Source: Rhodothalassiaceae bacterium
GTDB lineage: Bacteria; Pseudomonadota; Alphaproteobacteria; Sphingomonadales; Rhodothalassiaceae
Reading direction: 5' to 3'
Length of the DNA: 64,000 nucleotides
Assembly (NCBI GenBank): GCA_026004935.1
Contig: BPKC01000001.1
Location: 2,491,381 to 2,555,380, forward strand
Shown: positions 15,262 through 37,039 of the stretch, piece after piece
Numbering within the stretch: position 1 is the stretch's first letter
How the letters are laid out: each line of letters begins with the position of its first letter
Notes under the pieces: model-generated
Told to the model about the DNA's origin: nothing
Databases searched by the model: none
Seen by the model: only the letters and a program-made list of their open reading frames with translations
Program-made: the position numbers and the translations under genes

Positions 15262-15340
15262 GGCCCATCCCCACGCAGACGGAGGCGCACACCGCAGGAT
15301 GCTTGCGCCGCGGTGGCAAACACCCCATATCGAGGGAACC
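15262..15340 (-). repeat. Decayed CRISPR repeats beyond the leader-distal end
   Basis: At 15262-15289 the sequence matches the CRISPR repeat at 22 of 28 positions, including the first eleven on the plus strand (GGCCCATCCCC). One period (61 bp) further, at about 15323-15340, CCCCATAT-CGAGGGAACC looks like a second relic with an internal deletion. Both lie in the orientation of the array, about 125-200 bp before its first recognisable repeat. I read them as remains of still older array units. Confidence 0.6.
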
Positions 15341-15465: not shown

Positions 15466-18400
15466 AACCCATCCCCGCGCAGGCGGGGGAACCAGTGTCG
15501 GCGAACTCGTCGGCGGCAAACCGGCGGGCCCATCCCCGCGCAGGCGGGGGAACCTCGGGCAAGTACACGACACTCGCCCAGAACCGCGGCCCATCCCCGC
15601 GCAGGCGGGGGAACCCTGCCCCGCCAGGATCTGCTCCAGATGCATGGGGGCCCATCCCCGCGCAGGCGGGGGAACCGACGGCGCCATCTGCCGGGCGGCG
15701 GAAGGTCGGGGCCCATCCCCGCGCAGGCGGGGGAACCGCGGCCGCAAGCGTCGCGCGGGTGATACCATACGGCCCATCCCCGCGCAGGCGGGGGAACCCC
15801 GACCTCGATCCATGCCGGGCCGTCCCATCGCGGCCCATCCCCGCGCAGGCGGGGGAACCTCGCCGTCGTCATCGACGAGCTCGGCCGCGTACGGCCCATC
15901 CCCGCGCAGGCGGGGGAACCTGACCGTTCAGTCCAGCGTGACCGCCAAGGCAGGGCCCATCCCCGCGCAGGCGGGGGAACCCGGTGTGGGATCCCTGCTG
16001 CGGAGATGGTGCACGGCCCATCCCCGCGCAGGCGGGGGAACCGGCGTCGCCCAGGAGGGCGGTTTCGTGAGACGGGGCCCATCCCCGCGCAGGCGGGGGA
16101 ACCCTGGTGCGGCTCTGGGGGCCGCAGGAGGGGCCAGGCCCATCCCCGCGCAGGCGGGGGAACCCAGGACGCGCTGTTGAGCAGTGCGAGGCGGAGCGGC
16201 CCATCCCCGCGCAGGCGGGGGAACCGGCCAAAAGCTTTTCTTTTGCACATGACTCAAGGGCCCATCCCCGCGCAGGCGGGGGAACCCGGTCCGCCTGATC
16301 CACGATCACGGGCGCAATGGGCCCATCCCCGCGCAGGCGGGGGAACCCCTCTCGCAGTCGTCCAGCGTCTCTTCCAGCGCGGCCCATCCCCGCGCAGGCG
16401 GGGGAACCCCGGTCATCCAGCCCGACTTTTTCACCCTTCTTCGCCCATCCCCGCGCAGGCGGGGGAACCCCTCCGGATGATTGCATCGAGGTCGATCAGT
16501 GGGGCCCATCCCCGCGCAGGCGGGGGAACCACGTGGCGCGATCTCGCATGGGCCGTGGCGGGGGGCCCATCCCCGCGCAGGCGGGGGAACCGCGACCGTG
16601 GCCGTCCAGGGGTGGGACCCGGCGGGCCCATCCCCGCGCAGGCGGGGGAACCTCCAGAAATGCCCGGATAAACGAAATCCGGGCAGGCCCATCCCCGCGC
16701 AGGCGGGGGAACCGTGTCGCTGACGGTCACGGGATGGCTTATCAAGGGCCCATCCCCGCGCAGGCGGGGGAACCTCTGCGCCTGAGGCGTCCAGGGCCCA
16801 TCCCCGCGCAGGCGGGGGAACCACTGCGCAGACGGCCCATCCCCGCGCAGGCGGGGGAACCTCGAGGCGAGCCGCTCGTAGATCTGCTGCATGCGGCCCA
16901 TCCCCGCGCAGGCGGGGGAACCCCCTTCGGGCGCGCGCTCGAGCGGCATCAAGCAGGCCCATCCCCGCGCAGGCGGGGGAACCTCCTCGATGAGGTCGAG
17001 TGGCTGAAGTCGTGTGGGCCCATCCCCGCGCAGGCGGGGGAACCCTGGAAGGCAAGAAGATTCTGGTCCGGGGCCAAGGCCCATCCCCGCGCAGGCGGGG
17101 GAACCCAGGTGCGCCGCGTACAGCAGCGCGACCTCCGGGGCCCATCCCCGCGCAGGCGGGGGAACCACCGGCACCGTCTCCCCCTTCTACATCACCCCGG
17201 GCCCATCCCCGCGCAGGCGGGGGAACCTAGGCGACTGCGAAGTCGGTGGTGTCGTGGGGCGGCCCATCCCCGCGCAGGCGGGGGAACCGGGCCGTCGGTT
17301 GACGGTCAGCGTGACTGCCGGGCCCATCCCCGCGCAGGCGGGGGAACCAATCTCATACATTGCATATCAGTTGCACGGCCCATCCCCGCGCAGGCGGGGG
17401 AACCCTCGCGGCCCCGTCGCCGGCCGCGCTGAGGCCCATCCCCGCGCAGGCGGGGGAACCCTGCTACGCTTCAAGCAGGTTCATTGGCGTTCTCCGGCCC
17501 ATCCCCGCGCAGGCGGGGGAACCCCGCCACCGGCTGGCTGCCATGTGGGGATCCCGGGCCCATCCCCGCGCAGGCGGGGGAACCACCTCACCGGTGAATG
17601 GGCCGGAGGGCGCCTGAGGCCCATCCCCGCGCAGGCGGGGGAACCGCGACGGCAGCAGGGGCTGCGGACAGGCGGGCCCATCCCCGCGCAGGCGGGGGAA
17701 CCACCGTCAGCAACCCCGTGACTGTCCTGGGCATGGGCCCATCCCCGCGCAGGCGGGGGAACCTGCGGCTTGAGCTCGAAAAGGAGGTCAAGCCGAGGCC
17801 CATCCCCGCGCAGGCGGGGGACCCCGGAGGTTTGGTAGGTTGAAGGAGATGAAGGCGGGCCCATCCCCGCGCAGGCGGGGGAACCACGAATGCGGCGAGG
17901 TCGGAGGCGGTGCGGAGGGGCCCATCCCCGCGCAGGCGGGGGAACCTTGGTAGGGCTCGATGCGCACAAGATACAGCGCGGCCCATCCCCGCGCAGGCGG
18001 GGGAACCGGCAAATACATCACCTGGCACGCCGGCGGCATGGGCCCATCCCCGCGCAGGCGGGGGAACCGCACCGGGGGTTGCGGAACCCGCAGCGGTCGA
18101 AGGCCCATCCCCGCGCAGGCGGGGGAACCTTCGGGAATATCCAGAATAGAGATTGCTTGCCCGGCCCATCCCCGCGCAGGCGGGGGAACCGCCGCCATCG
18201 CCGTGGAGATGACGGCCGAGGCCGGCCCATCCCCGCGCAGGCGGGGGAACCCCGCCCTGCGGGCTCGCTCTATCCACTCATCGGGGCCCATCCCCGCGCA
18301 GGCGGGGGAACCTGCGGCCTGGGTTCGACGGTCGGGTGACCGCGCGGGCCCATCCCCGCGCAGGCGGGGGAACCTTCTCGTACGGCCGAAACCGCACAGC

Positions 18401-21400
18401 AAGGCCGGGCCCATCCCCGCGCAGGCGGGGGAACCTGTACGCTTCAAGCAGGTTCATTGGCTTTCTCCGGCCCATCCCCGCGCAGGCGGGGGAACCCCGA
18501 GCTTCTCAACGAGGTGCAGATCAGGGACAGGCCCATCCCCGCGCAGGCGGGGGAACCCCCGGACCTCGATGAGGCCGCCCTCGTCGGGCGGGCCCATCCC
18601 CGCGCAGGCGGGGGAACCGGGCTGGCGCGTGCCGTGAGGCCATAGCATGGCGGCCCATCCCCGCGCAGGCGGGGGAACCCCTGAGCTCGCGCCTATAGGC
18701 CTCAAGCATACCGGCCCATCCCCGCGCAGGCGGGGGAACCGTCTTCAGGTGGTCGGCAACAAGCCTAACAAGCGGCCCATCCCCGCGCAGGCGGGGGAAC
18801 CACCGCGATTCGGAATCGGCGGGCTCGCGTATCCGGCCCATCCCCGCGCAGGCGGGGGAACCTTCATATCCCCCTTCCTCAGGTAATGGTGGTAAGGCCC
18901 ATCCCCGCGCAGGCGGGGGAACCCTGTCCCGTGATAGACGCCAGCCCGCCGTATGAGGCCCATCCCCGCGCAGGCGGGGGAACCTTGTCGGCGGGATTGC
19001 TGCTGGCGAACGTGCCAGGCCCATCCCCGCGCAGGCGGGGGAACCAGGAGTTCAGGAAATGCAGGAACGTACGGCTGAGGCCCATCCCCGCGCAGGCGGG
19101 GGAACCGGTCAACCCCTCCCGCATCATCTCATGGCGACAGGCCCATCCCCGCGCAGGCGGGGGAACCACAACTCTTGAGCAGCAGCCCAATCAAGAGCAC
19201 GGCCCATCCCCGCGCAGGCGGGGGAACCGATCGCGAGAACCAGCGCCGCGCCGCTCAAGCCGGCCCATCCCCGCGCAGGCGGGGGAACCATCATCACGGA
19301 CCTTGTGGCGCTGCGGGTCGCCGGCCCATCCCCGCGCAGGCGGGGGAACCCTCGAAAAGCACCGCGACGTGGACGACAGGTACGGCCCATCCCCGCGCAG
19401 GCGGGGGAACCTCCGAGCAGCGGCGGAGTGACCATGGCGTGGATGGCCCATCCCCGCGCAGGCGGGGGAACCCGCTTCGTGCGGGCGCGCGGGCGGTGCG
19501 AATGGGGCCCATCCCCGCGCAGGCGGGGGAACCCCAGTCTGGACGGGGTCGTGCCCGTGCCAGCCGGGCCCATCCCCGCGCAGGCGGGGGAACCGTCACA
19601 TGGGCGACCGCGGATGCGATCTGGTCAGGCCCATCCCCGCGCAGGCGGGGGAACCTCCTCCAGACCATGCGCGAAGTGCTGGACAGCCGGCCCATCCCCG
19701 CGCAGGCGGGGGAACCGGAATGAAACGAGGTCGCACCAGTAGCGACCCGGGCCCATCCCCGCGCAGGCGGGGGAACCGACAGGTGCGCCGCGTCCAAGCT
19801 GTGGACAAAAGGCCCATCCCCGCGCAGGCGGGGGAACCATGGAGGACGCGGCCTCGGTCACGGCGGCGATCGGCCCATCCCCGCGCAGGCGGGGGAACCC
19901 CATTGAGACGCTGCGCCGGCGCCTTGAGGCGGGGCCCATCCCCGCGCAGGCGGGGGAACCATGCCGGCGTGCACCACGCGGCGCCGGATGGCGGGCCCAT
20001 CCCCGCGCAGGCGGGGGAACCTGGTGAGAGGAGAGACATATGACTGATGACTGGGGCCCATCCCCGCGCAGGCGGGGGAACCTCGACGGCCCACCCCTCA
20101 GGTAGCGCCCGCGGGGGCCCATCCCCGCGCAGGCGGGGGAACCGACTCAGCGGCTATGCGCCTGCACAAAGTCGGCGGCCCATCCCCGCGCAGGCGGGGG
20201 AACCACGCCACTGATCATGAACACCCCGCGGTCGAACGGCCCATCCCCGCGCAGGCGGGGGAACCAGGTGCCGGGGGTGCGCTCGTGGTATGAGGAGGGG
20301 CCCATCCCCGCGCAGGCGGGGGAACCGTTTGCGAGGCGGAAGTGAAACTCCCGTCGGCCGGCCCATCCCCGCGCAGGCGGGGGAACCAGGTGGTGGCGTC
20401 GTAGCGGTAGAACTCCTGTGGGCCCATCCCCGCGCAGGCGGGGGAACCGTCGCCTGACTCGACGGCACCCCTTGCACCGCCGGCCCATCCCCGCGCAGGC
20501 GGGGGAACCTCATCGAGCGTATCACTGCTCTTTCTAGGCACGGGCCCATCCCCGCGCAGGCGGGGGAACCACACCTCGGAGGCGGGTCGCGCTGACGAGG
20601 CGAGGCCCATCCCCGCGCAGGCGGGGGAACCGGGTACGATACCAGTCGTGTGGTGGGCGTCGAGGGCCCATCCCCGCGCAGGCGGGGGAACCAGGATCGT
20701 AGGCGTTGCGGCGCTGGCTGTGGTGGGCCCATCCCCGCGCAGGCGGGGGAACCAGGCGGCTGGAAAGCGGCCGCCTCAGCTTTTTGGGCCCATCCCCGCG
20801 CAGGCGGGGGAACCGTGACCGCGGCACCGTCCTTGGCGCCCGCCAGCGGCCCATCCCCGCGCAGGCGGGGGAACCGTGCATATGCAGCCCGCTTTGGACT
20901 TCGCTTCGGGCCCATCCCCGCGCAGGCGGGGGAACCGTCTCATCAGTGAGCGACGCCCTCCAGTCATCCGGCCCATCCCCGCGCAGGCGGGGGAACCGCC
21001 GTCAATTTGGCCATGTTGCTACTCCTTGGGGGCCCATCCCCGCGCAGGCGGGGGAACCTCCTCTTTGGTCCGCCTCATCGTCGACTGGCGCGGCCCATCC
21101 CCGCGCAGGCGGGGGAACCCCACAGGGGTGCTGCGTGATGGAGGTCACGTAGGGCCCATCCCCGCGCAGGCGGGGGAACCAGAAATCGACAATGGGTCGA
21201 CCGAGGCGGCCGGGCCCATCCCCGCGCAGGCGGGGGAACCGTGTAGCGATAGCCTGCCACGGCCTCGCCTGCAGGCCCATCCCCGCGCAGGCGGGGGAAC
21301 CGGAGGTGGGCACATAAAATTAACAAAAAACACCGGCCCATCCCCGCGCAGGCGGGGGAACCCATACCATCGCGTCCAGGCGGTCCGGGCTCTCAGGCCC

Positions 21401-24400
21401 ATCCCCGCGCAGGCGGGGGAACCTATGACTAGGGCTTTGCGCGCTTGCCCAGTAGAGGCCCATCCCCGCGCAGGCGGGGGAACCTCGACACCTGACCAAG
21501 AGCGCCACCCGTTGGACGGCCCATCCCCGCGCAGGCGGGGGAACCTTTTATCCCGCACTACAGCGCGCGGCCCGAAGAGGCCCATCCCCGCGCAGGCGGG
21601 GGAACCGCCGCGCGTCTCCATGCTGCCCGGGCCTGCTCGGGCCCATCCCCGCGCAGGCGGGGGAACCGGGCTACAACTTCGTAGCCCGGGTGCATCACCC
21701 GGCCCATCCCCGCGCAGGCGGGGGAACCACCCGGGACTATTACGCTCCGCTTCAAGAACAGGGCCCATCCCCGCGCAGGCGGGGGAACCGAAATAGAGGC
21801 GTGATAGGAAACACCATTACAGGGCCCATCCCCGCGCAGGCGGGGGAACCGCCGGGCGGTCGAGCGCATCGGCAGGCGACTGCGGCCCATCCCCGCGCAG
21901 GCGGGGGAACCCGTCGCCCACCGCGTCATCAAGGCGGTGGCGGGGGCCCATCCCCGCGCAGGCGGGGGAACCGGTGGCAGGCCGACACCAAAGATGCGGC
22001 GGCCGGGCCCATCCCCGCGCAGGCGGGGGAACCTTGAGGCCCTTATTGAGGCCCTTAGTGAGGCCCGGCCCATCCCCGCGCAGGCGGGGGAACCACCGTC
22101 GGGGCGGTGACGGTGGCGCGGGCCCACGGCCCATCCCCGCGCAGGCGGGGGAACCCTGACCTGCTGCGCGATGGGGGCGAGCCCGCCCGGCCCATCCCCG
22201 CGCAGGCGGGGGAACCAGCCGGTCTACGACAAGGCAATGGCGGCCGGCCGGCCCATCCCCGCGCAGGCGGGGGAACCTGAAGGAGAGGTGCGATGCATGA
22301 GCCGTTCGCGGGCCCATCCCCGCGCAGGCGGGGGAACCGCACTACCCATCGGTGGCCGAGCTGCTGGAGGCGGCCCATCCCCGCGCAGGCGGGGGAACCC
22401 ATAGGTGGTTCGACCTCGATCAGCATCTCTGGGGCCCATCCCCGCGCAGGCGGGGGAACCATGCCGGACTCCCGGGTTTATACGCACCGGTGGGGCCCAT
22501 CCCCGCGCAGGCGGGGGAACCTGCGGGTAATCGTAGGGCGACGGCTGGCACTCAGGCCCATCCCCGCGCAGGCGGGGGAACCCTCGCGGACCAGCTCACG
22601 ATACACGCGGAGCGCGGCCCATCCCCGCGCAGGCGGGGGAACCGGAGACGCTGACAAGCTCCCGCGCCACGCTTCAGGCCCATCCCCGCGCAGGCGGGGG
22701 AACCTCCTCGACGGTGATGCAGTACTGCACCACCGCCGGCCCATCCCCGCGCAGGCGGGGGAACCTATATGACCTCAGAAAGGAGGTCAGCAGCCATGGG
22801 CCCATCCCCGCGCAGGCGGGGGAACCGTGGTGCCGCGGGTCACGTGGACGCGCGGGTCCGGCCCATCCCCGCGCAGGCGGGGGAACCTCCAAGAGCTCGT
22901 GCGGGCGGAGGCGGCGTGGGGGCCCATCCCCGCGCAGGCGGGGGAACCGGTCGGGGACCCGTTTGCCACACTTATCCTGAGGGCCCATCCCCGCGCAGGC
23001 GGGGGAACCGTCAAACTAGCCCGACGATCAACAAGATCGTACGGCCCATCCCCGCGCAGGCGGGGGAACCCTAGCGCGGCCTCGAGGCCTTGCTCTATGT
23101 CAGGGCCCATCCCCGCGCAGGCGGGGGAACCCAGGCGCGCCACTAGGCTTGACCGTATGGTACGGGCCCATCCCCGCGCAGGCGGGGGAACCACCTGCAG
23201 CGCATCCACCTGACCCGGCAGTACAGGCCCATCCCCGCGCAGGCGGGGGAACCTGTTTGATTTTTCTTCCTCTTTCAAGACGATCGGGCCCATCCCCGCG
23301 CAGGCGGGGGAACCGCCGGGTCGCTCACGATCGACCAGCCTGCCTCCGGCCCATCCCCGCGCAGGCGGGGGAACCAAGAAGGAGCCGACCTGAACATCCG
23401 TGATCGCCGGCCCATCCCCGCGCAGGCGGGGGAACCCGGTCAAGACGGCCGTGATCGGCGCCCAGATCCGGCCCATCCCCGCGCAGGCGGGGGAACCATA
23501 CAGTAGCCGGCGCCGGCAGGCCCACAAGCGGGCCCATCCCCGCGCAGGCGGGGGAACCCGGTGATCGTGCCTCCCGTGACGGGAAGATAGGGGCCCATCC
23601 CCGCGCAGGCGGGGGAACCGGCGACGAGTTGACTTCGATCCCGCCTTCAGCGGGCCCATCCCCGCGCAGGCGGGGGAACCAGCGCGGCAATCAGCCGATC
23701 GATCGCCGCAACAGGCCCATCCCCGCGCAGGCGGGGGAACCCCGGCAGGAAGACTGCCATACTGAAGGGTGATCGGCCCATCCCCGCGCAGGCGGGGGAA
23801 CCATCACGGTGGCCGGCATCAAGGCGCGCGACCGGGGCCCATCCCCGCGCAGGCGGGGGAACCGACTGAACGGTCAACTCCACCTGTTTGATATCAGGCC
23901 CATCCCCGCGCAGGCGGGGGAACCCTTTTTATGAACCAAGCGCCGCCGCCGGGCTGCGGCCCATCCCCGCGCAGGCGGGGGAACCCGGATCTCGCCCCCG
24001 AATGGTCCTTTGTGCTCGGGCCCATCCCCGCGCAGGCGGGGGAACCCCGTCGCGGATCGGCTTGAAGGCGGCGACGAGGGGCCCATCCCCGCGCAGGCGG
24101 GGGAACCAGGAGCTCGTGCGTGCATGTGCCGCCGACGAGCGGCCCATCCCCGCGCAGGCGGGGGAACCTTGTGGCGCACCTGTGAGCGCTGCCCGGATCG
24201 CGGCCCATCCCCGCGCAGGCGGGGGAACCGGATGCGGCGCTGGCGGCCCTGGTGGCCGACCGGGCCCATCCCCGCGCAGGCGGGGGAACCTGCGGTGAGC
24301 GATTAGGCTTTCTTCCCGGTGAAGGCCCATCCCCGCGCAGGCGGGGGAACCATTCATCCATTCCAATGACTGAAAAGCCGCAGCGGCCCATCCCCGCGCA

Positions 24401-27360
24401 GGCGGGGGAACCGTGTCGTAGATTGAATGAAAATCCGACTCTTAGGGCCCATCCCCGCGCAGGCGGGGGAACCGTTTTCAACATAGCTAATTACAAAACG
24501 TCTTAAGGCCCATCCCCGCGCAGGCGGGGGAACCCGCGAGAACCAGCGCCGCGCCGCTCAAGAAGCCGGCCCATCCCCGCGCAGGCGGGGGAACCCGCGA
24601 GAACCAGCGCCGCGCCGCTCAAGAAGCCGGCCCATCCCCGCGCAGGCGGGGGAACCTTCTTCCGCTTGACGCGCAACTTCAACGAGAAGGGCCCATCCCC
24701 GCGCAGGCGGGGGAACCGGACCGCCAATACCAAAATCTTCATACACCACAGGCCCATCCCCGCGCAGGCGGGGGAACCCAGACCGGCGTCGACCGGTCGG
24801 GGACGGCCAGCGGCCCATCCCCGCGCAGGCGGGGGAACCCCTCAGCGGCCGAAAGCCGGCCGCCCGTCACAAGGCCCATCCCCGCGCAGGCGGGGGAACC
24901 TCTCGGTTGTCATGCCTCTTTTTATTTCATCACGGCCCATCCCCGCGCAGGCGGGGGAACCGTCGGCCTACGCGCCGGCACTAGGGACCGACGGCCCATC
25001 CCCGCGCAGGCGGGGGAACCCCGGCCGCGACGACTCGGTGCCCGCCATCGCGGGCCCATCCCCGCGCAGGCGGGGGAACCCCATGCGCGTGCATCACGAT
25101 CAGCTCGGCGTGCGGCCCATCCCCGCGCAGGCGGGGGAACCGGTGCATTCCTCTGTCCGCGCCCGACTCGGGCCCATCCCCGCGCAGGCGGGGGAACCCC
25201 TGCGCTCAATGCCGCTCTTCCACCGACAGGCCCATCCCCGCGCAGGCGGGGGAACCGCGTCCTGCGCGGTGGTCGGCCGGGACCCGGGGCCCATCCCCGC
25301 GCAGGCGGGGGAACCTCGACACCTGCCAAGAGCGCCACCCTGGACGGCCCATCCCCGCGCAGGCGGGGGAACCTATCCCGCACTCAGCGCGCGGCCCGAA
25401 GAGGCCCATCCCCGCGCAGGCGGGGGAACCCCATATACCCGATGCTGAGGCCGGAGATCGCCGGCCCATCCCCGCGCAGGCGGGGGAACCCGCGGTCTCC
25501 AGCGCGCGGGTCCATTGCCCACGGCCCATCCCCGCGCAGGCGGGGGAACCTTCCCGTGCGAGAAGTCCTCCTCCGTAACCCGGGCCCATCCCCGCGCAGG
25601 CGGGGGAACCGTTGACGATCGTCGTCATATGCACGCCTCCTTCCGGCCCATCCCCGCGCAGGCGGGGGAACCATGTATGAAGAAACCAATCTCTCTCAAC
25701 AACCAGGCCCATCCCCGCGCAGGCGGGGGAACCACAATGAAGGAGCAGGAAACTATTCGTCGTGAAGGCCCATCCCCGCGCAGGCGGGGGAACCTCATGC
25801 CCTCCATAAGCTTGGTCAAGCGCTCCAGGCCCATCCCCGCGCAGGCGGGGGAACCCATTCATTGATACCTTGCGCGCGGCGAATTGCGGCCCATCCCCGC
25901 GCAGGCGGGGGAACCTCCTTGGCGTAGGCGACCGCAATGTCGGCGTAGGGCCCATCCCCGCGCAGGCGGGGGAACCGACCGGCGGCGACGCCGGCGTGTA
26001 GATCTCGACGGCCCATCCCCGCGCAGGCGGGGGAACCCTACTCCGGCCTCATCCAAGTCAATCCAGCCCGGGCCCATCCCCGCGCAGGCGGGGGAACCGC
26101 GCTGGATGCGATCCTCGACGAGGAGGGCGGCGGCCCATCCCCGCGCAGGCGGGGGAACCCTGCCGGCGCAGAAGCTCGGTGTTGGCCTCGAGGGCCCATC
26201 CCCGCGCAGGCGGGGGAACCCGCCACTTGCCGTCGACGAGCTCCTCGCAGGCAGGCCCATCCCCGCGCAGGCGGGGGAACCCCCTGCGCCGGCAGGCTCG
26301 TGACGGTGATGTCCGGCCCATCCCCGCGCAGGCGGGGGAACCGTCAGCCGCTCGGCCGGCGCAGCACCTCGAGCGGCCCATCCCCGCGCAGGCGGGGGAA
26401 CCGAAACTCCGCGTCTGGTCGACGCCGTCTACGGGGCCCATCCCCGCGCAGGCGGGGGAACCGTGACCGCCGCGACCGGCCCGGCACGGCCAGGGCCCAT
26501 CCCCGCGCAGGCGGGGGAACCAGGAACCTCGACTCGTGTCGGGCCTGAAAGGCCCATCCCCGCGCAGGCGGGGGAACCCGTCGAGCGCCAAGCGCCCCGG
26601 GCCCATCCCCGCGCAGGCGGGGGAACCGCTCGGGCAGCCCAGTTCACCGGCCCATCCCCGCGCAGGCGGGGGAACCTTCACGCTACCTAGCACGGCACCG
26701 GACCAGGCCCATCCCCGCGCAGGCGGGGGAACCCCATGCGCAATCACCGCTCGTGCTGCACTGGGGCCCATCCCCGCGCAGGCGGGGGAACCCATGACAC
26801 CGCGTGCCGTGCTGCGCCGCGGCGGCCCATCCCCGCGCAGGCGGGGGAACCCTTGGTGCGCTACTCAGCCGCTGCGGGATCCGGCCCATCCCCGCGCAGG
26901 CGGGGGAACCCCATCCAGCGGCAGGCGGCGCAAAGACCCGACGGCCCATCCCCGCGCAGGCGGGGGAACCGTCTGACGCGTCACGGTGACGGAATATCTT
27001 CCGGGCCCATCCCCGCGCAGGCGGGGGAACCACACTGCCGAGATGCGGCCCCCCTGACGCGGCCCATCCCCGCGCAGGCGGGGGAACCGCCCCCGTGCCT
27101 GTCGCCCGAGCCGGCCCATCCCCGCGCAGGCGGGGGAACCCTGTCGCCGACTGCCACAGCTCCTTCGTGGGGCCCATCCCCGCGCAGGCGGGGGAACCCG
27201 CGAGCACCGACTCGAGGGCTGGGCCCATCCCCGCGCAGGCGGGGGAACCGCTCAGATCCGAGCTCCTGACTCGGGCCCATCCCCGCGCAGGCGGGGGAAC
27301 CGCAGCTCCGTCTGGTCCGACGCGTCACTGCGGGCCCATCCCCGCGCAGGCGGGGGAACC
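15466..27360 (-). CRISPR. Type I-E CRISPR array, 198 repeats and 197 spacers
   Basis: I counted 198 copies of a 28-nt repeat. On the transcribed minus strand it begins GGTTCCCCCGCC and ends GCGGGGATGGGCC, with a CCCCGC/GCGGGG hairpin stem, as in other type I-E repeats. The usual period is 61 bp, giving 33-nt spacers. Nearly all repeats are identical. Exceptions are the leader-distal one (15466, AA in place of GG at its edge), one at about 16442 (one edge base) and one at 17797-17824 (one A to C). Spacer length is irregular at 16775-16833, 17289-17702, 24962-25610 and 26343-27360. Orientation follows from the cas genes and from the decayed repeats at the low-coordinate end. The count was made by eye and could be off by one or two. 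Confidence 0.98.
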
Positions 27361-27417
27361 TCTGGCCCACAAAAGCCTGATTTTCTTCACATGTCAAAGA
27401 GCGGAAGGTTGAAAATC
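27361..27417 (-). promoter_or_regulatory. CRISPR leader with array promoter
   Basis: This 57-bp AT-rich stretch separates the cas2 stop from the first repeat. On the minus strand it contains TTGACA (27392-27397), a 17-bp spacer and TTTTGT (27369-27374), a plausible sigma-70 promoter that would start transcription within a few bases of the first repeat. The leader may extend into the end of cas2. New spacers should enter at 27360. Confidence 0.7.
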
Positions 27418-27747
27418 TCAGCCCTCGGAATCTTCCGGAAGTTGTTCCCCCGCGGGTCCGCGGGCCGCCACGACGAGGCCGTCGATCTCCACGAGCCGCC
27501 GGGGCGGCACGCCGAGCGTGCGGATCGCCTGTCCACAGGGTTCGTCCGCATCAGGCCAGGTCATCACCACCGCGCCCTGGCGCAGCTCGGTGTGCCAATC
27601 CTCGAGCACGGACCAGACGCGCGCGCGCACCCCGGTGCTCATGCGCGGCTGCGTGTAGACGCCCGGCGCGATCTCGAGCATGCAGCTGGCCAGAAAGCCC
27701 CGCATGCGATCCGGCACGTCACGCGTCACCACCACGGTCATCGGCAT
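27418..27747 (-). CDS. cas2: CRISPR-associated protein Cas2, type I-E
   Basis: This 109-residue protein is the structural partner of Cas1 in the spacer integrase. It starts MPMTVVVTRDVPDRMRGFLA, continues CMLEIAPGVYTQPRMS and RVWSVLEDW, and has the typical Cas2e ending ...LVEIDGLVVAARG. A C-terminal tail of about 15 residues is added. It overlaps cas1 by 29 bases and lies directly against the leader, as in E. coli. Confidence 0.96.
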   Translation of the reverse strand: MPMTVVVTRDVPDRMRGFLASCMLEIAPGVYTQPRMSTGVRARVWSVLEDWHTELRQGAVVMTWPDADEPCGQAIRTLGVPPRRLVEIDGLVVAARGPAGEQLPEDSEG

Positions 27748-28603
27748 CGAAAAGCTCCTTGATGCGGTCGATCATCGCGGGGATCACCCGCTTTTCCCGC
27801 AGCAGCCTGCCCGTGGCGCGGCGGGCCAGGCGCTCGATCGTGTCGCCCGTGCGCCGCTCGGCCTCGCGCGCCGCCTCGAAGGCCGCCGGCAGGGTGATCA
27901 TGTCGCGGAAGAGATCGGCGATATCCAGCACGAAGGATATGCCCGAATCCTCGTGGATGAAGCCGAGCTGGGGGATGGTCGCGGTGGCGGCCACGGCGAT
28001 GGCGGCCGCCGCCTCCACCGCGGTGGCCGCGTGGTTGATGGCCTGGTTGGGCAGGTCCGCCGCCTCGGGATGCGCCCGGTCGTAGCGGCGTCCGCGCCAG
28101 CGCACCCCGTAGCGGCGGGCGAGCAGGGCGTAGGTCTGCTTCATGCGCGCCCCTTCGATGCCGCGCAGCACGTCGATGCTCTGATGCGGCAGCACCTCGC
28201 CCAGGCGCCAGGCGTACATCCGCCGCGCGATGGCAAGCCGCGCACCTTCCGCGTCCGCCCAGGCGCGCGCCTGCCGCCGGGCGAGATCGGAGCGATCCGG
28301 CAGCAGCGGCGGCGCGGTGTAGAGCCGCACGCCGTCCTCGCCCACCGCCGCCAGCCCCGTGCCGTGGCGGGCGCACAGGCGCAGCGCGTCGTGGGTGACG
28401 CTCGATCCCGGCCCCAGCAGGATGAGCGAGACCATCTGGAACGGAATGGCATGGTCGCCCGGGGGCAGGCCGTCCGCTCCGGCGGTGACGAAGCGCAGCG
28501 TGCCGTCCTCGACCATCAAGGTGCCGCGGGCCAGCCATACGAGCCCGTGGCGGTCCGCATGCGGAATGCGGGCGGTCTCGAGTCCCAGACGGCCCTTCAG
28601 CAT
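27719..28603 (-). CDS. cas1: CRISPR-associated endonuclease/integrase Cas1, type I-E
   Basis: This 294-residue integrase, with Cas2, captures protospacers and inserts them at the leader-repeat junction. The metal-binding triad is recognisable: glutamate in RGIEGARMK, histidine in LGFIHEDSGISFV and aspartate in VLDIADLFRD. The N-terminal beta domain begins MLKGRLGLETARIPHADRHG, and the motif LGPGSSVTHDALRLCARHG is typical of Cas1e. It starts 11 bp after cas6e and overlaps cas2. All key residues are present, so acquisition should be possible. Confidence 0.97.
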   Translation of the reverse strand: MLKGRLGLETARIPHADRHGLVWLARGTLMVEDGTLRFVTAGADGLPPGDHAIPFQMVSLILLGPGSSVTHDALRLCARHGTGLAAVGEDGVRLYTAPPLLPDRSDLARRQARAWADAEGARLAIARRMYAWRLGEVLPHQSIDVLRGIEGARMKQTYALLARRYGVRWRGRRYDRAHPEAADLPNQAINHAATAVEAAAAIAVAATATIPQLGFIHEDSGISFVLDIADLFRDMITLPAAFEAAREAERRTGDTIERLARRATGRLLREKRVIPAMIDRIKELFDADDRGGDA

Positions 28604-28614
28604 CGCGGGTTTCC

Positions 28615-29337
28615 CTAGGACGCGCGCAGCAGCAGCATCCCGAAACCGAACACCCTGTGGCGGCCGATGCCGCGCGCCAGCAGCTCATGGAAGGCCGCGC
28701 CATCGCGCACCGCAAGCAGACCCTCGAACCGGGCGTCGGGTTTCGTCATGGTTCTCCGGGAGGCACCGTGGCGCAGCCGCACGCGGCGATAGGCGACGAG
28801 CCGCGCCTCGAGCAGCTCGGCCGCGCCGTCGCGCGCGAGCTGGCGGGCCAGCCAGCGGCGGTAGACCTCCTCGCGCCGAAGCGGCCGCTCATCGGGGCTC
28901 ATTCCGCCCGCCGCGACGAGGAAGGCGTCGGTCTCGCGGCTCTTCTCGCGTCTGCCCTCGCGGTCCTGACGCAGGACGGGGCAGACCCGGGTCGCAAAGC
29001 GCAGCAGCCGGCCCGTGGGCCAGTGCGCCGGCATCGCCCGCGCCTCCAGAGCAAGCACGGCGGCGGCGGCCGCGCGGTCCGCGGCCGCGCCAAGGGCGGC
29101 CCGCAGCCGTGCCGCATCGGCCCCGGTGTAACCGTAGACCCGCATCGTCGATCCGTCGGCGGGCGCACCGTCGGGATCCACGGCGAAGGGCTGGGGGCCG
29201 TCTGGACCCAGCGCACGCCGCAAAACGCAGTGCACGAGGTAGCCGGAATCGCCCTCCGGCGTCGCCAGCCCCCGGCCGCCGCCCCAGGCGAAAAGCCGCG
29301 GCAGCGACAGGGTGATGCGCGCAAGATGCAGGATCAT
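28615..29337 (-). CDS. cas6e: CRISPR pre-crRNA endoribonuclease Cas6e (Cse3)
   Basis: This 240-residue protein cuts the array transcript within each repeat and stays bound to the hairpin as part of Cascade. The N-terminal RAMP fold starts MILHLARITLSLPRLFAWGG. His36 in YLVHCVLR is the likely catalytic histidine (equivalent to His20 of E. coli Cas6e). The C-terminal glycine-rich loop reads GIGRHRVFGFGMLLL, a Cas6 hallmark. It overlaps cas5e by 4 bases. Confidence 0.95.
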   Translation of the reverse strand: MILHLARITLSLPRLFAWGGGRGLATPEGDSGYLVHCVLRRALGPDGPQPFAVDPDGAPADGSTMRVYGYTGADAARLRAALGAAADRAAAAAVLALEARAMPAHWPTGRLLRFATRVCPVLRQDREGRREKSRETDAFLVAAGGMSPDERPLRREEVYRRWLARQLARDGAAELLEARLVAYRRVRLRHGASRRTMTKPDARFEGLLAVRDGAAFHELLARGIGRHRVFGFGMLLLRAS

Positions 29338-30077
29338 CGTCCCTCCTCCGGCAGCGTGATCTCCACCTCGTCCTCCAGCATGAGCCGTTCGCCGACATGA
29401 ATCTGATTGCGCCAGTCGCGCCGGTCGTGGACGATCACGGGCCGCGGATTGCGGCCGCCCTCTTCCTCCGGCGGCCAGATGGCGAACATTTTGCCCGCGC
29501 CGGCGCCTGCCGGGCGCGGGCCTTCGGCCGGCGGCACGCGGGCCAGGATGTCCAGAAGCCCCGCGCCTTCAGCGGCCCCGAGCAGGAGGGGAGCCGAGGG
29601 CAGGCAGGGCTTGCGGCCGATGAACAGCGGCCGGCGCGGCGCCCTCAGGGCCGTGGCGAGCGCATCGAGATCGGGATCCTCGTCGGGGGGATCGAGGGCG
29701 AGCGCGACCGTGACACACGCATCTTCCAGATACTCGCGCCGGCGGATGTGGGTGCCCTTGGCCGCAGGCCCGCCCTCGCGCTTTTGCGGGCTGCCCGTCG
29801 TCGTCCAGCCTGGCCCGGTCATGAAGGGCTGACCGAGATCCACGGTCTGATAGTCCTCGAGGATCCGGCCGTCACGGTCGCGCCGGGCGGCGAAGCGCAG
29901 GCGCTGCTGCAGCCTGTCGTGGCGGTCGAAGGCGCCCTGGTCCCAGCCGAGGGCGTTGGCCAGCAGACCCGTCAGCATGGATGCCGCGGGGTAGCGGGCG
30001 GTGCGCCCGATGGCGTCCACCATGACGTCGCCGAAGGCCATGAGCGGCGCCTCCAGCCGCAGGATCAGCGCGCGCAT
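29334..30077 (-). CDS. cas5e: Cascade subunit Cas5e
   Basis: This 247-residue RAMP protein caps the 5' handle of the crRNA in Cascade. The chosen ATG gives MRALILRLEAPLMAFGDVMV, the standard Cas5e start; it overlaps the last base of the cas7e TGA. The longer open frame upstream only shadows cas7e. Further family blocks are RTARYPAASMLTGLLANALG and TGSPQKREGG, followed by the RREYLEDA strand. Length is normal. Confidence 0.95.
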   Translation of the reverse strand: MRALILRLEAPLMAFGDVMVDAIGRTARYPAASMLTGLLANALGWDQGAFDRHDRLQQRLRFAARRDRDGRILEDYQTVDLGQPFMTGPGWTTTGSPQKREGGPAAKGTHIRRREYLEDACVTVALALDPPDEDPDLDALATALRAPRRPLFIGRKPCLPSAPLLLGAAEGAGLLDILARVPPAEGPRPAGAGAGKMFAIWPPEEEGGRNPRPVIVHDRRDWRNQIHVGERLMLEDEVEITLPEEGR

Positions 30078-31276
30078 CACGATTCTCCGACCGTCCCCAA
30101 TGCCGCGACCGCCGCTTCCACGGCCTCGGGAAACGTCAGCCGCCGGGCGCCCGGCAGCGCCTCGCCGACCACCCCGGCATCGGCCTGCCAACGCCGCTCG
30201 CCGCGGCCATACATGGCGTCGATCCCCTCGACATGCGCCCGCAGGCGCGCGATCGCCGCGTCGCGGACATCTGCGGCCTCCTCGGGCCGGACCGCGGCGC
30301 GGAAGGCGTTGGCCAGCGTGCGCGGCTGACGCGCGCCGACCTCGAGCAGCACGAACTCCGCCATGGCGTGGGGCGCCGTCGATCCGAGCTTGGCCCCGGG
30401 CGAGACGGTGGCCGCGAGATGCAGCAGATGGGTCACCGCCTTGCGCGCGGCGTCCTGGTCCGCGTCCAGCCAGTTCTCGGGCGCGCATCCCTCGATGTTC
30501 GCGACGAGGGTGGGCATGTCGACGACGAGATAGCCGTAGTAGAGACCGCTGGTGAGCTCCGTCTGCCCGAGATGGCCGCTGCCCGACTCCTCGACGCCGG
30601 TGATCAGGTCGTCGACGGCCGTAAAGTAGTCGGATTCCGCCTCCTCCGCATGGACCGTGAAGGCATGGGCCACATGGACCGCCGCATTCTTGCGCGCGAG
30701 CACGTCGGAGGTCACCATGCGCCCGAACATCGCCGCGTCCAGCCCGGCGCCCGCGCGCAGGGCGTTGATGTTGGCGCGGATCGCCTTGACCCGCTCCGCG
30801 GCCCGCGCAGCGGCGTCCTTCTCGTCGGCGGCCGCGCGCACCACTTCGGCGACCTCGCTGCGCAGATAGTCGACCTCGGGCTTGCCGAGCACGGTCACCT
30901 GCTCGGTCTCGAAGGTCTCCTTCTCGCCCTTGGCCCTAGCCTTTTCACTCTTCTGGAAGATGGCATCCCGGAACGCCTTCAGCGCCGCGCGCACCAGAGC
31001 CTCGTCCAGCCCCTCGTCCACGAGGGGGTGGACGATGCAGCGCTCGAGCGTCTCGCGCGAACGGATCGCCATGTCGAGCCCGACGCGCGAGAGGGCCCAG
31101 GGGCCGTCGGCGGTGCGCCAGTGGCGCTTCAGGCACTGCGAGGAGATGCGCGTGCGCACGCTGCCTCCGAAGGTGATGCGCTTGGCATAGCCCGCGTCGT
31201 CGCGATTGATGAGCGCGGCCGGATAGCCGGTCAGCCAGTGCATCTGAAGAAAGCGGGCGGGTTCGGTGTTCTGCAT
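30077..31276 (-). CDS. cas7e: Cascade backbone subunit Cas7e (Cse4/CasC)
   Basis: This 399-residue protein polymerises along the crRNA spacer as the Cascade backbone (six copies in E. coli). It starts MQNTEPARFLQMHWLTGYPA and contains FGGSVRTRISSQCLKRHWR, DMAIRSRET and MFGRMVTSDVLARKNAAVHV, all conserved in Cas7e. A ribosome binding site AAGGGAGC lies upstream of the ATG. It starts 3 bases after cse2 ends. It is somewhat longer than E. coli CasC because of a charged insertion at about 108-155. Confidence 0.96.
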   Translation of the reverse strand: MQNTEPARFLQMHWLTGYPAALINRDDAGYAKRITFGGSVRTRISSQCLKRHWRTADGPWALSRVGLDMAIRSRETLERCIVHPLVDEGLDEALVRAALKAFRDAIFQKSEKARAKGEKETFETEQVTVLGKPEVDYLRSEVAEVVRAAADEKDAAARAAERVKAIRANINALRAGAGLDAAMFGRMVTSDVLARKNAAVHVAHAFTVHAEEAESDYFTAVDDLITGVEESGSGHLGQTELTSGLYYGYLVVDMPTLVANIEGCAPENWLDADQDAARKAVTHLLHLAATVSPGAKLGSTAPHAMAEFVLLEVGARQPRTLANAFRAAVRPEEAADVRDAAIARLRAHVEGIDAMYGRGERRWQADAGVVGEALPGARRLTFPEAVEAAVAALGTVGES

Positions 31277-31279
31277 GGA

Positions 31280-31888
31280 TCAGCTCCCTTCCTCGGTTAC
31301 CGTCTGCCTTTCATTGCGGGCCCTTGCCCGGTAATAGTCGGCCGCGATGCGGCGACGCAGGCGCTCCGCTTGGTCGTCCTGCCGGCGCGCCTCGGCGAGC
31401 AGCAGCTGCGCGAGCAACCGCCAGTCGAAGGCCGGTCCCGCCTGCGCGGCAAGATACCGGCACAGGCGCCGCAAGGTCGGCCACAGCCGCTCCCCGCGGG
31501 CGCGCAGGAACTGCTCCAGCCGCGCCTCGTGGAGCCCGGCCCCGGCCAGAACCGCCCCGAGCGGCCGCCCGGGGGCGTGGTGGCGCGGCGCGAGGATGGC
31601 CATGCCGGCCGCGACCATGGCCCAGGCGGCCTGCTCGCGGTCCGCATTCTCGCGCCTGTCGTCGAGGACAGTCGGGGCGGCCTCGGCCAGCAGGGCGTAG
31701 AAGGCCGGTGAGGCCATCTGCGTCGGCGGGTTGAGCCGGCGCAGGCCGGCAAGCCCGCCCCGGTCATGAAGCTCCATCGTCTTAATGCGTCCGGCGAGTT
31801 TGGAGACTATGACCGGGACGGGATCACCGGCCTTGCCGACGGCATCCGGCATGTCGGGATCGAGCGGCTTTGCTGCCACCTCAGACAT
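31280..31888 (-). CDS. cse2: Cascade small subunit Cse2 (Cas11)
   Basis: This 202-residue helical protein is present in two copies in E. coli Cascade and stabilises the R-loop. I start it at MSEVAAKPLDPDMPDAVGKA, which overlaps the cse1 stop by 8 bases; a start nine codons earlier is possible. Conserved Cse2 blocks include ELHDRGGLAGLRRLNPPTQM and LRRLCRYLAA. Position between cse1 and cas7e fixes the assignment. Confidence 0.92.
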   Translation of the reverse strand: MSEVAAKPLDPDMPDAVGKAGDPVPVIVSKLAGRIKTMELHDRGGLAGLRRLNPPTQMASPAFYALLAEAAPTVLDDRRENADREQAAWAMVAAGMAILAPRHHAPGRPLGAVLAGAGLHEARLEQFLRARGERLWPTLRRLCRYLAAQAGPAFDWRLLAQLLLAEARRQDDQAERLRRRIAADYYRARARNERQTVTEEGS

Positions 31889-33512
31889 CGGCCACCTCCT
31901 TTCCCTCTGCGGCAAGCTGCTGGAAGTGACGGCGCAGCTGCGCGTGGAAGAGGCTTTCCGCCTCTGCGACGGCGCGGTAGCGGCGGGCGCTCGTCTGCGG
32001 CGGCTCCTCCAGCGCCCGCATGAAGACCTCCCGCGCGGCCGCGATCAGCAGATCCCGCCAGTCCTGACGCGCGCGAGCGCGCGCGGCGGGGTCGGCTCCG
32101 GCGTTCACCTCCTCCCACAGATGCGCGCCGAAGAAGAACCCGTCGACGGCGTGGTGCAGCCGCGTCTGGGCCGCCCTTATCCACGCCTCCTCGCCCGCGG
32201 ACGGCCTGCCCGTCGCACCATCGCCCGGCCGCAGGCGGCGGATGAGCGCGGGGCGCAGCACCTGTCTGATCATCTTTTCCACCTCCTCCAGGCGTTCCTT
32301 GACGATCTCGCCAACCCGGTCTCGCTCTTGCGGAGCGAAGAGGAGTGAGCCGGTTTGTGCGGGAAAGGGAATGCGGCGTTCGTAATAGCCCTCGGTGCCG
32401 CCCTGGCCGCGCACAAGAACGCGTGCGACCAGGATCACGGAGCCTTGGTCGATACCGCTGTGCCATCTGAGAGCGAGCGGAGGCTCGTATTCCGGATCCC
32501 AGACGTATTCGGCGAGCCGGTCATAGCGCAGCCCGAGCGGACCGACGGTGATCGCATAGCCGCTCGTGCGCGAAACCGGCAGCCAGGGGTCGCCCAGATT
32601 GCCGTGGAATGCCGCGGCGTCGATGCGGGCCACGCGGGAGCCGGCGCCGCGCGCCTCGAGTGCGCCGCCCCCGTCCCTGACGAGCCGGTAGCGACGGCAG
32701 ATCTCGATGAACCAGGGATCGAGATCGGACACCGCCAGCTGGCTGCGCCCGTCCCAGGGCAGGAGCCAGAGAAGGCCGTGACCATCATCCCGATAGGCCC
32801 AGGGCCGTTCCCTTTCACCCATGGCGTGGGCCGCCTCCAGCCAGTGCTCCCGCCGTCTCGCGAGCAGCACCGCCACGTCCCGTCGTACATGGGCGCCGGG
32901 CAGCACCCCGGGCGCGATCCCGAACCCGGCGCGGCTGCTGTAGCCGCCGTTCATGCGGGCGATGCCGTACCAGGATCGGCCCGAATAGCCGGCGGCGGTC
33001 TGGCCGCTGACGAGAGCGAAAAGCCACCCTTCGGGCGAGGGACGGGCGATGCGCGCCGCCTTCACGTCGTGGTTCTTCGCCGTGACGAGGACATCGATCT
33101 CGTCGGGGCGCATGAAGACGGTCGTCAGCTCGGCATGGGTTTCGCCCGGCAGCGGCGGCTGGAGGAAGGCGGGCTTCGTCCAGTCGTCGACGACCAGACA
33201 CCACGGCTCGTCGCCGCCCTGCCAGCCCTCTGCGGCCGCAAGCGCGCGCAGGAGCTCCGCCCACTCCCGCTCCGATTCGGGCGGATCGCGCCGCCTGGCC
33301 CTGTGCAGCGCGAGCGCGGCCAGCTGCACCAGCAGCGCGTGCCAGGGATGCTCCTGCCACGGGGCGAGAGCCGGAAAGGCCGCGATCTCGTCGCGCATGA
33401 GGGCGGCCAGCACGCCGGGCAGCGTCATCCGCCGCCGGGTTGCTGCGGCCCGTTCGTGCGCATCCCGGCAGTGGACCGTGATCAGCGGATCTTCAAGAAG
33501 ATTGCCCTGCAT
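31881..33512 (-). CDS. cse1: Cascade large subunit Cse1 (Cas8e)
   Basis: This 543-residue protein recognises the PAM and recruits Cas3. The start MQGNLLEDPLITVHCRDAHE has the usual short beta hairpin. Diagnostic blocks follow: TLPGVLAALMRDEIAAFPAL, HPWHALLVQLAALALHRARR and WCLVVDDWTKPAFLQPPLPG, then MNGGYSSRAGFG, a conserved Cse1 glycine-rich segment. A strong GGGAGG ribosome site lies 6 bases before the ATG. Further upstream a TATAAC at about 33538 could be the -10 box of a separate Cascade promoter. It is separated from cas3 by a 667-bp gap. Confidence 0.95.
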   Translation of the reverse strand: MQGNLLEDPLITVHCRDAHERAAATRRRMTLPGVLAALMRDEIAAFPALAPWQEHPWHALLVQLAALALHRARRRDPPESEREWAELLRALAAAEGWQGGDEPWCLVVDDWTKPAFLQPPLPGETHAELTTVFMRPDEIDVLVTAKNHDVKAARIARPSPEGWLFALVSGQTAAGYSGRSWYGIARMNGGYSSRAGFGIAPGVLPGAHVRRDVAVLLARRREHWLEAAHAMGERERPWAYRDDGHGLLWLLPWDGRSQLAVSDLDPWFIEICRRYRLVRDGGGALEARGAGSRVARIDAAAFHGNLGDPWLPVSRTSGYAITVGPLGLRYDRLAEYVWDPEYEPPLALRWHSGIDQGSVILVARVLVRGQGGTEGYYERRIPFPAQTGSLLFAPQERDRVGEIVKERLEEVEKMIRQVLRPALIRRLRPGDGATGRPSAGEEAWIRAAQTRLHHAVDGFFFGAHLWEEVNAGADPAARARARQDWRDLLIAAAREVFMRALEEPPQTSARRYRAVAEAESLFHAQLRRHFQQLAAEGKEVADV

Positions 33513-34179
33513 CTCGACCTCCCGTTCCCTTCGCGAGTGTTATACGAAAATCGCGCGTCTGTCGCATCAAAATGTTTGCTTGCAGTTGCATCCATTGCGG
33601 CATCGGCGATCCACCGGCGGAGGGGATGTTGGCGCCCGCTGCGGCGGATGGAGAACCCAGAGGACGCGCCGGATCAGGACTTGTGCAGAATCCGAGGTCG
33701 GGCAAACCGGAAGAGCGCCACGCGTGGAATTTGCCCGGGTCTGACCGAATCGGGTTCCCCAGAGCTCGTGTGATTGTCGCATTCCGGTCTCCTTCAGTCT
33801 CGGAACGAGGGATGGCCCCTTCGCCGCCGGTTTGCCTCGTGTGGCATTCGCAAGCAGCACAGTTGTCTACCTTCGGTTTTTTTCCTTTCCCCTGCACCCT
33901 AAGCGGCACACTTCGATCTATCTAAGGCGGCAAATCTTCGCTGTCAAGCCCCGCGTCCTCGGCTTTGGCCGCCTAGTCCGGGGGAAAGACGCCTCTTCCC
34001 AATCCGCCGCAGCACACCTAACAGGAATTTGCGCCCGCGCCAGTGAGCGCTTCCCCGGCTGCCCGGGGATGGTCCGTGTGCCGCTTAAGGTGCAGGGCAT
34101 TCTCCGCCCACGCGGAGCCGCGGCGGCGAGGAGTGGATCCCGCCGCCGCCTTTTTGCGGCCGTTGTGCCCGTTGGGCCG
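33513..34179 (-). promoter_or_regulatory. Gap between cas3 and cse1, presumed Cascade promoter region
   Basis: This 667-bp gene-free stretch is less GC-rich than its flanks. A TATAAC box with AT-rich upstream sequence lies about 25 bp before cse1 on the minus strand; I cannot find a well-spaced -35. A plus-strand GC hairpin followed by CTTTTTG occurs at about 34124-34157. A pair of 22-bp inverted repeats is listed separately. In E. coli the same gap carries the H-NS-controlled Cascade promoter, so a control region here fits. Short ORFs in it look random. Confidence 0.5.
33890..34097. mobile_element. MITE-like element or large inverted repeat, 208 bp
   Basis: Two 22-bp segments, 33890-33911 and 34076-34097, are inverted copies differing at one base: CCCTGCACCCTAAGCGG... 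on the plus strand and its complement with one T for C. They enclose 164 bp with no coding capacity. I see no clear target-site duplication. A miniature transposon is one reading, a long operator or cruciform for Cascade control another. Confidence 0.45.
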
Positions 34180-36813: not shown

Positions 36814-37039
36814 CGCCCTACTCCGCCCGTCGCGTGGCAGCGGCCGGCCGTGCCGCGCCGCTGCGTCTGTGCCCCCCGTCGCCGCGCGACCAAGCTATCG
36901 CGACAAGGAGCTCACTCGCAAGGGCTGCCGGGAGCACCTGCGGCCGGGAAGGATGCTACCGGAACGTCGGGGAGGTCGCGGAACAGGCACGGCAACCGCA
37001 AATGGTCGGGGATCGGCGGCGGGGACGCCGGAAATAGGC

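Follow-up and report, generated by a model that had tools for sequence, protein, structure and literature searches.

A long type I-E CRISPR array in a Rhodothalassiaceae bacterium matches a resident Mu-like prophage and probably contains blocks of consensus error

The 64,000-nt window analysed here (Rhodothalassiaceae bacterium, assembly GCA_026004935.1, contig BPKC01000001.1, positions 2,491,381 to 2,555,380) carries what is, as read from its genes and repeats, an ordinary type I-E CRISPR-Cas locus that is complete and whose array is unusually long. Its most interesting feature is a group of spacers that match a prophage resident in the same genome. The explanation that we consider probable joins an ordinary long type I-E locus to blocks of spacers that would be consensus errors, interference that would be held off the prophage, and self-repression that a CreR-like element may provide. 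Positions below are those of the window, except that seven-digit positions and those prefixed C1 are genome coordinates.

The type I-E locus and its array

Eight cas genes, all on the minus strand and spanning 36813 to 27418, follow one another as cas3, cas8e, cas11, cas7, cas5, cas6e, cas1 and cas2, so that every member of the type I-E set (cas8e, cas11e, cas7e, cas5e, cas6e, cas3, cas1e and cas2e) is present and uninterrupted. They comprise cas3 (34180..36813; profile search and alignment to 4q2c), cas8e (cse1, casA; 31881..33512; TIGR02547 just above cut-off, PADLOC Cas8e at 500 bits), cas11e (cse2; 31280..31915; TIGR02548), cas7e (30077..31276; TIGR01869), cas5e (29334..30080; TIGR01868), cas6e (28615..29337; TIGR01907), cas1e (27719..28603; TIGR03638, 291 bits) and cas2e (27418..27747; TIGR01873, 92 bits). 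Seven of the Cas proteins passed their NCBIfam cut-offs, Cas8e barely (75.5 versus 70.05 bits), while Cas3 passed the core-helicase and HD domain models, matched PADLOC Cas3e over its full length and, in the alignment to 4q2c, retained its HD, Walker A, DEVH and QRLGRLHRH segments. In Cas1, a Glu, a His and an Asp align with those of the E. coli structure, which we take to be the catalytic residues of the active site. Family scores, motifs and alignment thus agree with an earlier, sequence-only reading of this DNA, which had described the cas genes and the Cas1 residues as intact, intactness being judged here by family scores and a few motifs only. The assignment to type I-E is likewise upheld by the complete gene set, the 28-nt repeats and the mostly 33-nt spacers.

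The array occupies 15466..27360 and comprises 198 repeats of 28 nt (GGTTCCCCCGCCTGCGCGGGGATGGGCC) and 197 spacers, with its crRNA orientation on the minus strand; a script count reproduced exactly the coordinates and the hand count of the sequence-only reading. By the same count 195 of the 198 repeats are identical, the exceptions being the first (15466), with two changes, and the 17th and 40th, with one each. Exact copies of the repeat in the whole genome (2.91 Mb, two contigs) also number 195, all of them forward, which is the number in the array itself, and a reversed-pattern control gave zero copies. Between cas2 and the array lies a putative leader, read directly from the sequence (27361..27417, minus strand), of 57 bases and 44% G+C, compared with 70% for the window. 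In related loci, oriented to put Cas1 on the plus strand, the listed repeats have the form GGTTCCCC...GGGGATnGnCC or near it, which is the orientation of the minus-strand reading of the array here. From the leader, the side on which the cas genes lie and the repeat orientation in related loci, the leader is placed at the right end, adjoining spacer 197 as the newest, and spacer 1 is the oldest. Repeat no. 1, the altered terminal one, sits at the old end of the array, the usual place. At the leader, Cas1–Cas2 would add 33-nt spacers taken beside AA motifs; only 2 of the 197 spacers have A as their first base, in agreement with that motif.

Some further features of the array and its surroundings may be recorded. 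About 180 bases past the old end, a repeat-like sequence (15262-15289, minus strand) with 6 of 28 positions changed is possibly a remnant repeat. Spacers 150 and 151 (24535-24628) are identical, and spacer 63 has 28 bases in common with them, shifted by three. Many copies of a palindromic intergenic repeat of the CGCCGGCTTGACCGGCG type occur upstream of cas3 (36900-38050) as well as at C1:2184700-2185700 and C1:2218600-2221500.

The array is very long, but not a record, as the sequence-only reading had called it. Published accounts of Haliangium ochraceum describe arrays of 587 and 189 spacers within the same genome (PMC7145573, PMC8047081); the larger is the longest that we found in print. 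The two genomes resemble each other in having a very long single array, the one here being about a third of the size of that record. For comparison with closer systems, 83 distinct Cas1e loci were assembled from 80 relatives and 4 same-family stretches, with one contig common to both sets (L025 and L039) counted once. These are type I-E systems of alphaproteobacteria and relatives, likewise with a type I-E Cas1, among them that of Rhodospirillaceae bacterium BRH_c57 (L029), whose Cas1 is 81% identical to the one here, and those with arrays have the same repeat type, with either 28-nt repeats and 33-nt spacers or 29 and 32. They contained 67 I-E-like arrays, the largest with 151, 130 and 111 repeats; these largest arrays end inside their loci, and the 10-kb flanks would hide anything above about 160 repeats.

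A second CRISPR system, of type III-A, lies at C1:38.3-52.5 kb and encodes Cas10, Csm2-5, Cas6, a CARF-HEPN protein and a Cas1. Its arrays have 19 and 23 repeats of 36 nt in opposite orientation (C1:38300-55400, L026-L027). One of its spacers (B4) has 28 of 30 bases in common with type I-E spacer 118, and another (B15) has 21 of 23 in common with spacer 57; the 28/30 match suggests that the two systems have probably encountered related elements.

Off-length spacers in four blocks

Spacer length divides the array into regular and irregular parts. Of the 197 spacers, 159 are 33 nt long, 10 are 32 nt and 28 are neither, so that 38 are off-length (range 11-35 nt). Besides being smaller, the 67 comparison arrays are far more regular: 50 of their 2067 spacers deviate by at least one base and 13 of 2067 by at least two, compared with 26 of 197 deviating by at least two here. 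Isolated off-length spacers (48, 95 and 172) are each one base off. The other 35 fall into four blocks on the minus strand: spacers 22-23, of 20 and 11 nt (16775..16833); spacers 31-34 and 37 (17289..17674); spacers 157-168, in which spacer 159 is 33 nt (24962..25644); and the leader-proximal spacers 180-197, in which spacer 191 is 33 nt (26343..27332). They include 17 of the 18 newest spacers. Adjacent off-length pairs number 28, whereas 10000 shuffles averaged 7.1 and never exceeded 16. All 42 repeats that touch the four blocks are exact.

Within the blocks, spacers recur in altered form and in order. For example, spacer 34 is spacer 50 with insertions and one substitution, and spacers 163-164 are spacers 100-101 with scattered deletions. 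In an order test, with scores capped so that no single pair dominates, spacers 180-197 resembled spacers 151-168 at an offset of -29 (0 of 300 permutations reached the observed score), and spacers 186-197, a part picked after an earlier look at the data, resembled spacers 170-181 at an offset of -16 (5 of 300). For four control stretches of regular spacers the counts were 268, 36, 283 and 252 of 300, and blocks 2 and 3 taken alone were not significant (271 and 89 of 300). When every pair of offsets was tested base by base for two-parent blends, the -29/-16 pair was not among the best, in a setting where pairwise gapped alignments give a high background. Block spacers are also richer in G+C than regular ones (0.70 versus 0.64, p 0.006), which fits a consensus and could have other causes.

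Simulated assemblies bear on the same question. A single register of noisy reads yielded 32-33-nt spacers and left 98% of repeats exact; when two to eight registers were stacked, spacer lengths ranged over 18-36 nt and the share of exact repeats was 63-82%. These values come from a deeper rerun with fewer errors, made after a shallower simulation with too few reads had kept only 1.8 of 6 repeats exact in one register. The real repeats in the blocks (42 of 42 exact) are therefore cleaner than those of the simulated mixed stacks. Mutation or acquisition, for their part, would not be expected to leave all the repeats untouched. Together with the noisy copies, the ordered resemblance and the simulated lengths, this makes consensus error the most likely origin of the 35 off-length spacers in the four blocks. 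Reads out of step by whole repeat units would be stacked on one another, so that repeats would stay perfect while spacers would be blended or shortened.

The alternative, which we regard as improbable, is that all 197 spacers are real and that the off-length ones were shortened by deletion after acquisition, or were taken up by a Cas1–Cas2 that had lost its length ruler, recently so in the case of those near the leader. Off-length spacers are indeed commonest beside the leader, where the newest lie, but they also occur in the middle and in the old part of the array, where they are likewise accompanied by perfect repeats. None of the 35 block spacers ends in T at the motif side, as is true of nearly all regular spacers (2 of 159 do), pointing to an acquisition bias in common; the lack of T is, however, equally expected from blends of regular spacers. 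Spacer 33 weakly matches 13 viral loci (described below), which could mean that it is real. Against this stand the ordered resemblance of spacers 180-197 to 151-168, the scattered deletions that separate spacers 163-164 from 100-101, and the 67 other I-E-like arrays, which lack such an off-length pattern. Consensus error is accordingly retained as the preferred account of the blocks.

It is safe to trust the regular blocks, with their roughly 160 spacers, whereas the 18 leader-proximal units need reads. Of the near-perfect uniformity claimed in the sequence-only reading, the 195 identical repeats stand, whereas both "197" and "uniform" are insecure within the four blocks because these read as consensus errors. 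Copies introduced by assembly, which that reading had named as a threat to its own count, are probably present in these blocks (35 spacers).

Spacer matches to a resident Mu-like prophage

Several spacers match the genome that carries them. Four are perfect over 33 bases: spacer 115 (22400..22432; target at C1:2189357), spacer 117 (22522..22554; C1:2189711), spacer 134 (23559..23591; C1:2191865) and spacer 137 (23742..23774; C1:2190191). Spacer 135 (23620..23652; C1:2190247) matches at 32 of 33 and spacer 6 (15799..15831; C1:2192908) at 31 of 33, all six spacers lying on the minus strand. Within 100 kb around these matches, spacers 119 (30/33), 179 (26/33) and 139 (25/33) also matched. AA lies directly 5' of the target (crRNA orientation) in eight of the nine matches in this tail-fibre region (at most 8 mismatches), spacer 119 having CC instead. 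Spacer 5 matches the endolysin gene at 10 mismatches, with GAA.

Controls set these matches apart from background. A genome search with the array returned matches at C1:2189357-2192940 and one in another array, from candidate stretches scored by BLAST, so that weak matches elsewhere can be missed. With the 190 spacers of at least 28 nt and up to 25% mismatch, 19 rows were found; the ten besides the nine above lie at 6-8 mismatches and none is AA-flanked. A shuffled spacer set gave 3 rows at 7-8 mismatches without the AA filter, and with the AA filter, at up to 10 mismatches, each of ten sets shuffled from the 159 regular spacers yielded at most one row. All prophage-matching spacers are regular 33-nt spacers, and gapped alignment of the off-length spacers with the target genes gave nothing above the shuffled maximum.

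The close matches all fall in two genes at the left end of the prophage (2188558-2193899). One encodes, at the C-terminus of its product, a chaperone-of-endosialidase domain of the kind that tail fibres typically carry (1300 of 1358 residues scanned), and the other has a weak short-tail-fibre match. The surrounding region is a Mu-like prophage that encodes a CI-type repressor, a small HTH regulator (Ner-like), a transposase (MuA-like), a transposition protein (MuB-like), an endolysin and a holin, together with a terminase, a Mu portal, a head protease, a major head protein, a tape measure protein and tail protein J; the names MuA-, MuB- and Ner-like are labels given here to the families found. 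A list of 11-base inverted repeats gave no clear prophage ends. The self-matching spacers could derive either from another phage with this module or from primed acquisition around an older spacer.

The prophage is flanked by a major-head gene on the left (2186447-2188195) and a BR0599-type tail gene on the right (2217873-2218517), which we take to be of the kinds known from gene transfer agents. On the right side, this stretch (C1:2186447-2223819, L120-L122) also holds a weak NlpC/P60 match below cut-off and an Rcc01698-like gene. DUF2460, presumably another gene transfer agent gene, was not found in the genome, and the middle tail genes may therefore be missing.

Searches for protospacers in other phages and plasmids gave weak matches. 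Among cultured phages the most consistent was between spacer 68 and cytosine methyltransferase genes of enterobacterial phages (87-91%, E 0.7-9). A Gordonia phage match (E 9e-6) includes repeat sequence and was taken for chance. Megablast of the whole array against plasmid and phage collections, in which an exact shared word of 28 bases is required, gave no match. In distant mode the first 8000 array bases returned 114 plasmid records, 102 of them at 60-80% identity, which were taken for G+C-rich, repeat-driven matches; one of the 114 records reached at least 99% and was not among the matches listed. In IMG/VR, relatives of the prophage portal and capsid provided 90 viral loci (1.40 Mb, several of them near-copies), while the tail protein J query gave no match. 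Against these loci, 190 of the 197 spacers (at least 28 nt) gave 14 rows with up to 6 mismatches, none with AA; 13 were due to off-length spacer 33, at 4-6 mismatches of 28, and one to spacer 176.

The long, active phage pressure proposed in the sequence-only reading is thus half borne out: some of the regular spacers do have matches in Mu-like phage DNA, but the four perfect AA-flanked matches mean that the resident prophage is presumably not under interference now.

Tolerance of the prophage and a CreR-like element

A working type I-E system should cleave a chromosome that holds four perfect AA-flanked targets; because the cell exists despite them, interference is presumably blocked, weak or lost. 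Ways out of self-targeting described in a review (PMC6990116) are mutation, reduced Cas expression and anti-CRISPRs. Here an anti-CRISPR, low expression or a hidden defect would keep interference in check and so let the cell survive.

The first route, a type I-E anti-CRISPR encoded in the prophage or elsewhere in the genome, is a tentative candidate, possible but less likely than not. Mu-like phages are classical carriers of anti-CRISPR genes, and here perfect AA-flanked self-matches lie beside cas genes that look intact. Against it, no anti-CRISPR gene was identified among the prophage genes called in 2188558-2217856, nearly all of which are structural, lysis, regulatory or transposition genes, and the gap at 2206109-2206680, which we take to be the classical site of acr genes in Pseudomonas phages, holds just one plausible ORF, of 64 aa and with no PHROG family. 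A precedent exists in Xanthomonas albilineans, where, according to PMC10810201, two anti-CRISPRs help explain the tolerance of extensive self-targeting by type I systems. In both cases a genome with type I systems and their cas genes contains several targets of its own spacers; unlike that case, the putatively functional system here is of type I-E, the close targets lie in one prophage only and no inhibitor was found among the prophage genes.

Interference may also have been lost invisibly before the prophage entered, for example through a cas point mutation. This is unlikely: the judgement of intactness does come from family scores and a few motifs only, but seven Cas proteins stand above NCBIfam cut-offs (Cas8e barely), and Cas3 passes its domain models and keeps the motifs examined.

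Low cas expression bears on a second feature of the locus, which lies in the gap between cas3 and casA (33513-34179). Here an isolated degenerate repeat (34048..34075, plus strand; 6 of 28 positions changed) is followed by a 22-nt crRNA-like spacer (34076..34097, plus strand) and then, by eye, a second hairpin that is perhaps a degenerate repeat. The crRNA-like spacer matches 33890..33911 on the minus strand at 21 of 22 bases, with GAA 5' of the match, and this match lies just downstream of a promoter-like sequence (TTGACA-17-TAGATA, by eye) that faces casA. CreR is described in a review (PMC12737573) as an RNA that lets Cascade repress its own operon, and the likeness consists in a crRNA-like element that lies within the cas locus and partly matches the region of the cas operon promoter. 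The traits of CreR found here are an isolated degenerate repeat with a short spacer outside the array, and a partial, PAM-flanked match to a putative promoter. The element at 34048-34097 therefore fits a CreR autorepressor, albeit a putative one, whose guide should let Cascade repress the casA promoter. Unlike in plain CreR, a 97-aa ORF lies between the putative promoter and casA, so that a CreTA/CrePA-like arrangement is possible. This ORF (33567-33860, minus strand) has atypical codon use and low third-position G+C, and may represent a leader RNA, a small toxin or nothing.

Similar elements occur in related loci. A free-mismatch search of 66 loci found four more (L034, L041, L042 and L101), 4.6-5.3 kb into their loci, with cas1 starting near 10 kb; in the control for this search, random 15-mers gave 35 such matches in 3309 trials. 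Over the first 15 bases of the five elements, 7 of the 10 mismatches are accounted for by spacer bases 7 and 13, which presumably correspond to the positions that Cascade leaves unpaired. A stricter search that ignored those two positions retained 6 of the 66 loci (the window, L034, L041, L042, L043 and L093) and dropped L101; it covered 574 candidate elements, and 2870 control positions gave 6 matches. The match in L093 falls on array sequence and is spurious. Arrays in CreR-like loci were not significantly longer (five loci, including the spurious L093, versus 60, with the window left out; p = 0.11), and for this reason the claim that CreR allows long arrays is not made.

That the prophage is tolerated through low cas expression, by CreR-like autorepression or other silencing and with no inhibitor, is possible but rather doubtful, somewhat more so than an anti-CRISPR. 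The 21/22 match with its AA motif at the casA promoter region speaks for it, as does the account of CreR as lowering Cas levels and avoiding autoimmunity; yet the same account has CreR repression lifted once crRNAs are plentiful, a condition that an array of 197 spacers should promote (both statements on CreR from PMC12737573). Basal interference, moreover, can suffice to kill. A speculative proposal, which we place between these two routes, is that some inhibitor or control circuit as yet unrecognised, and perhaps tied to the CreR-like guide, would let a complete type I-E system with a very large pool of crRNAs tolerate four perfect, AA-flanked prophage targets and spare its own chromosome.

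Implications

Phage history is commonly inferred from array lengths and from the order of the newest spacers. The locus described here indicates that flawless-looking repeats in a deposited array do not vouch for its spacers, which here, and most of all near the leader, are probably untrustworthy; spacer length by position offers a simple check on deposited arrays. For the biology of this bacterium, the CreR-like element represents a testable regulator of the type I-E operon, and the perfect self-matches to the resident prophage give a clear starting point in the search for an inhibitor of type I-E systems.
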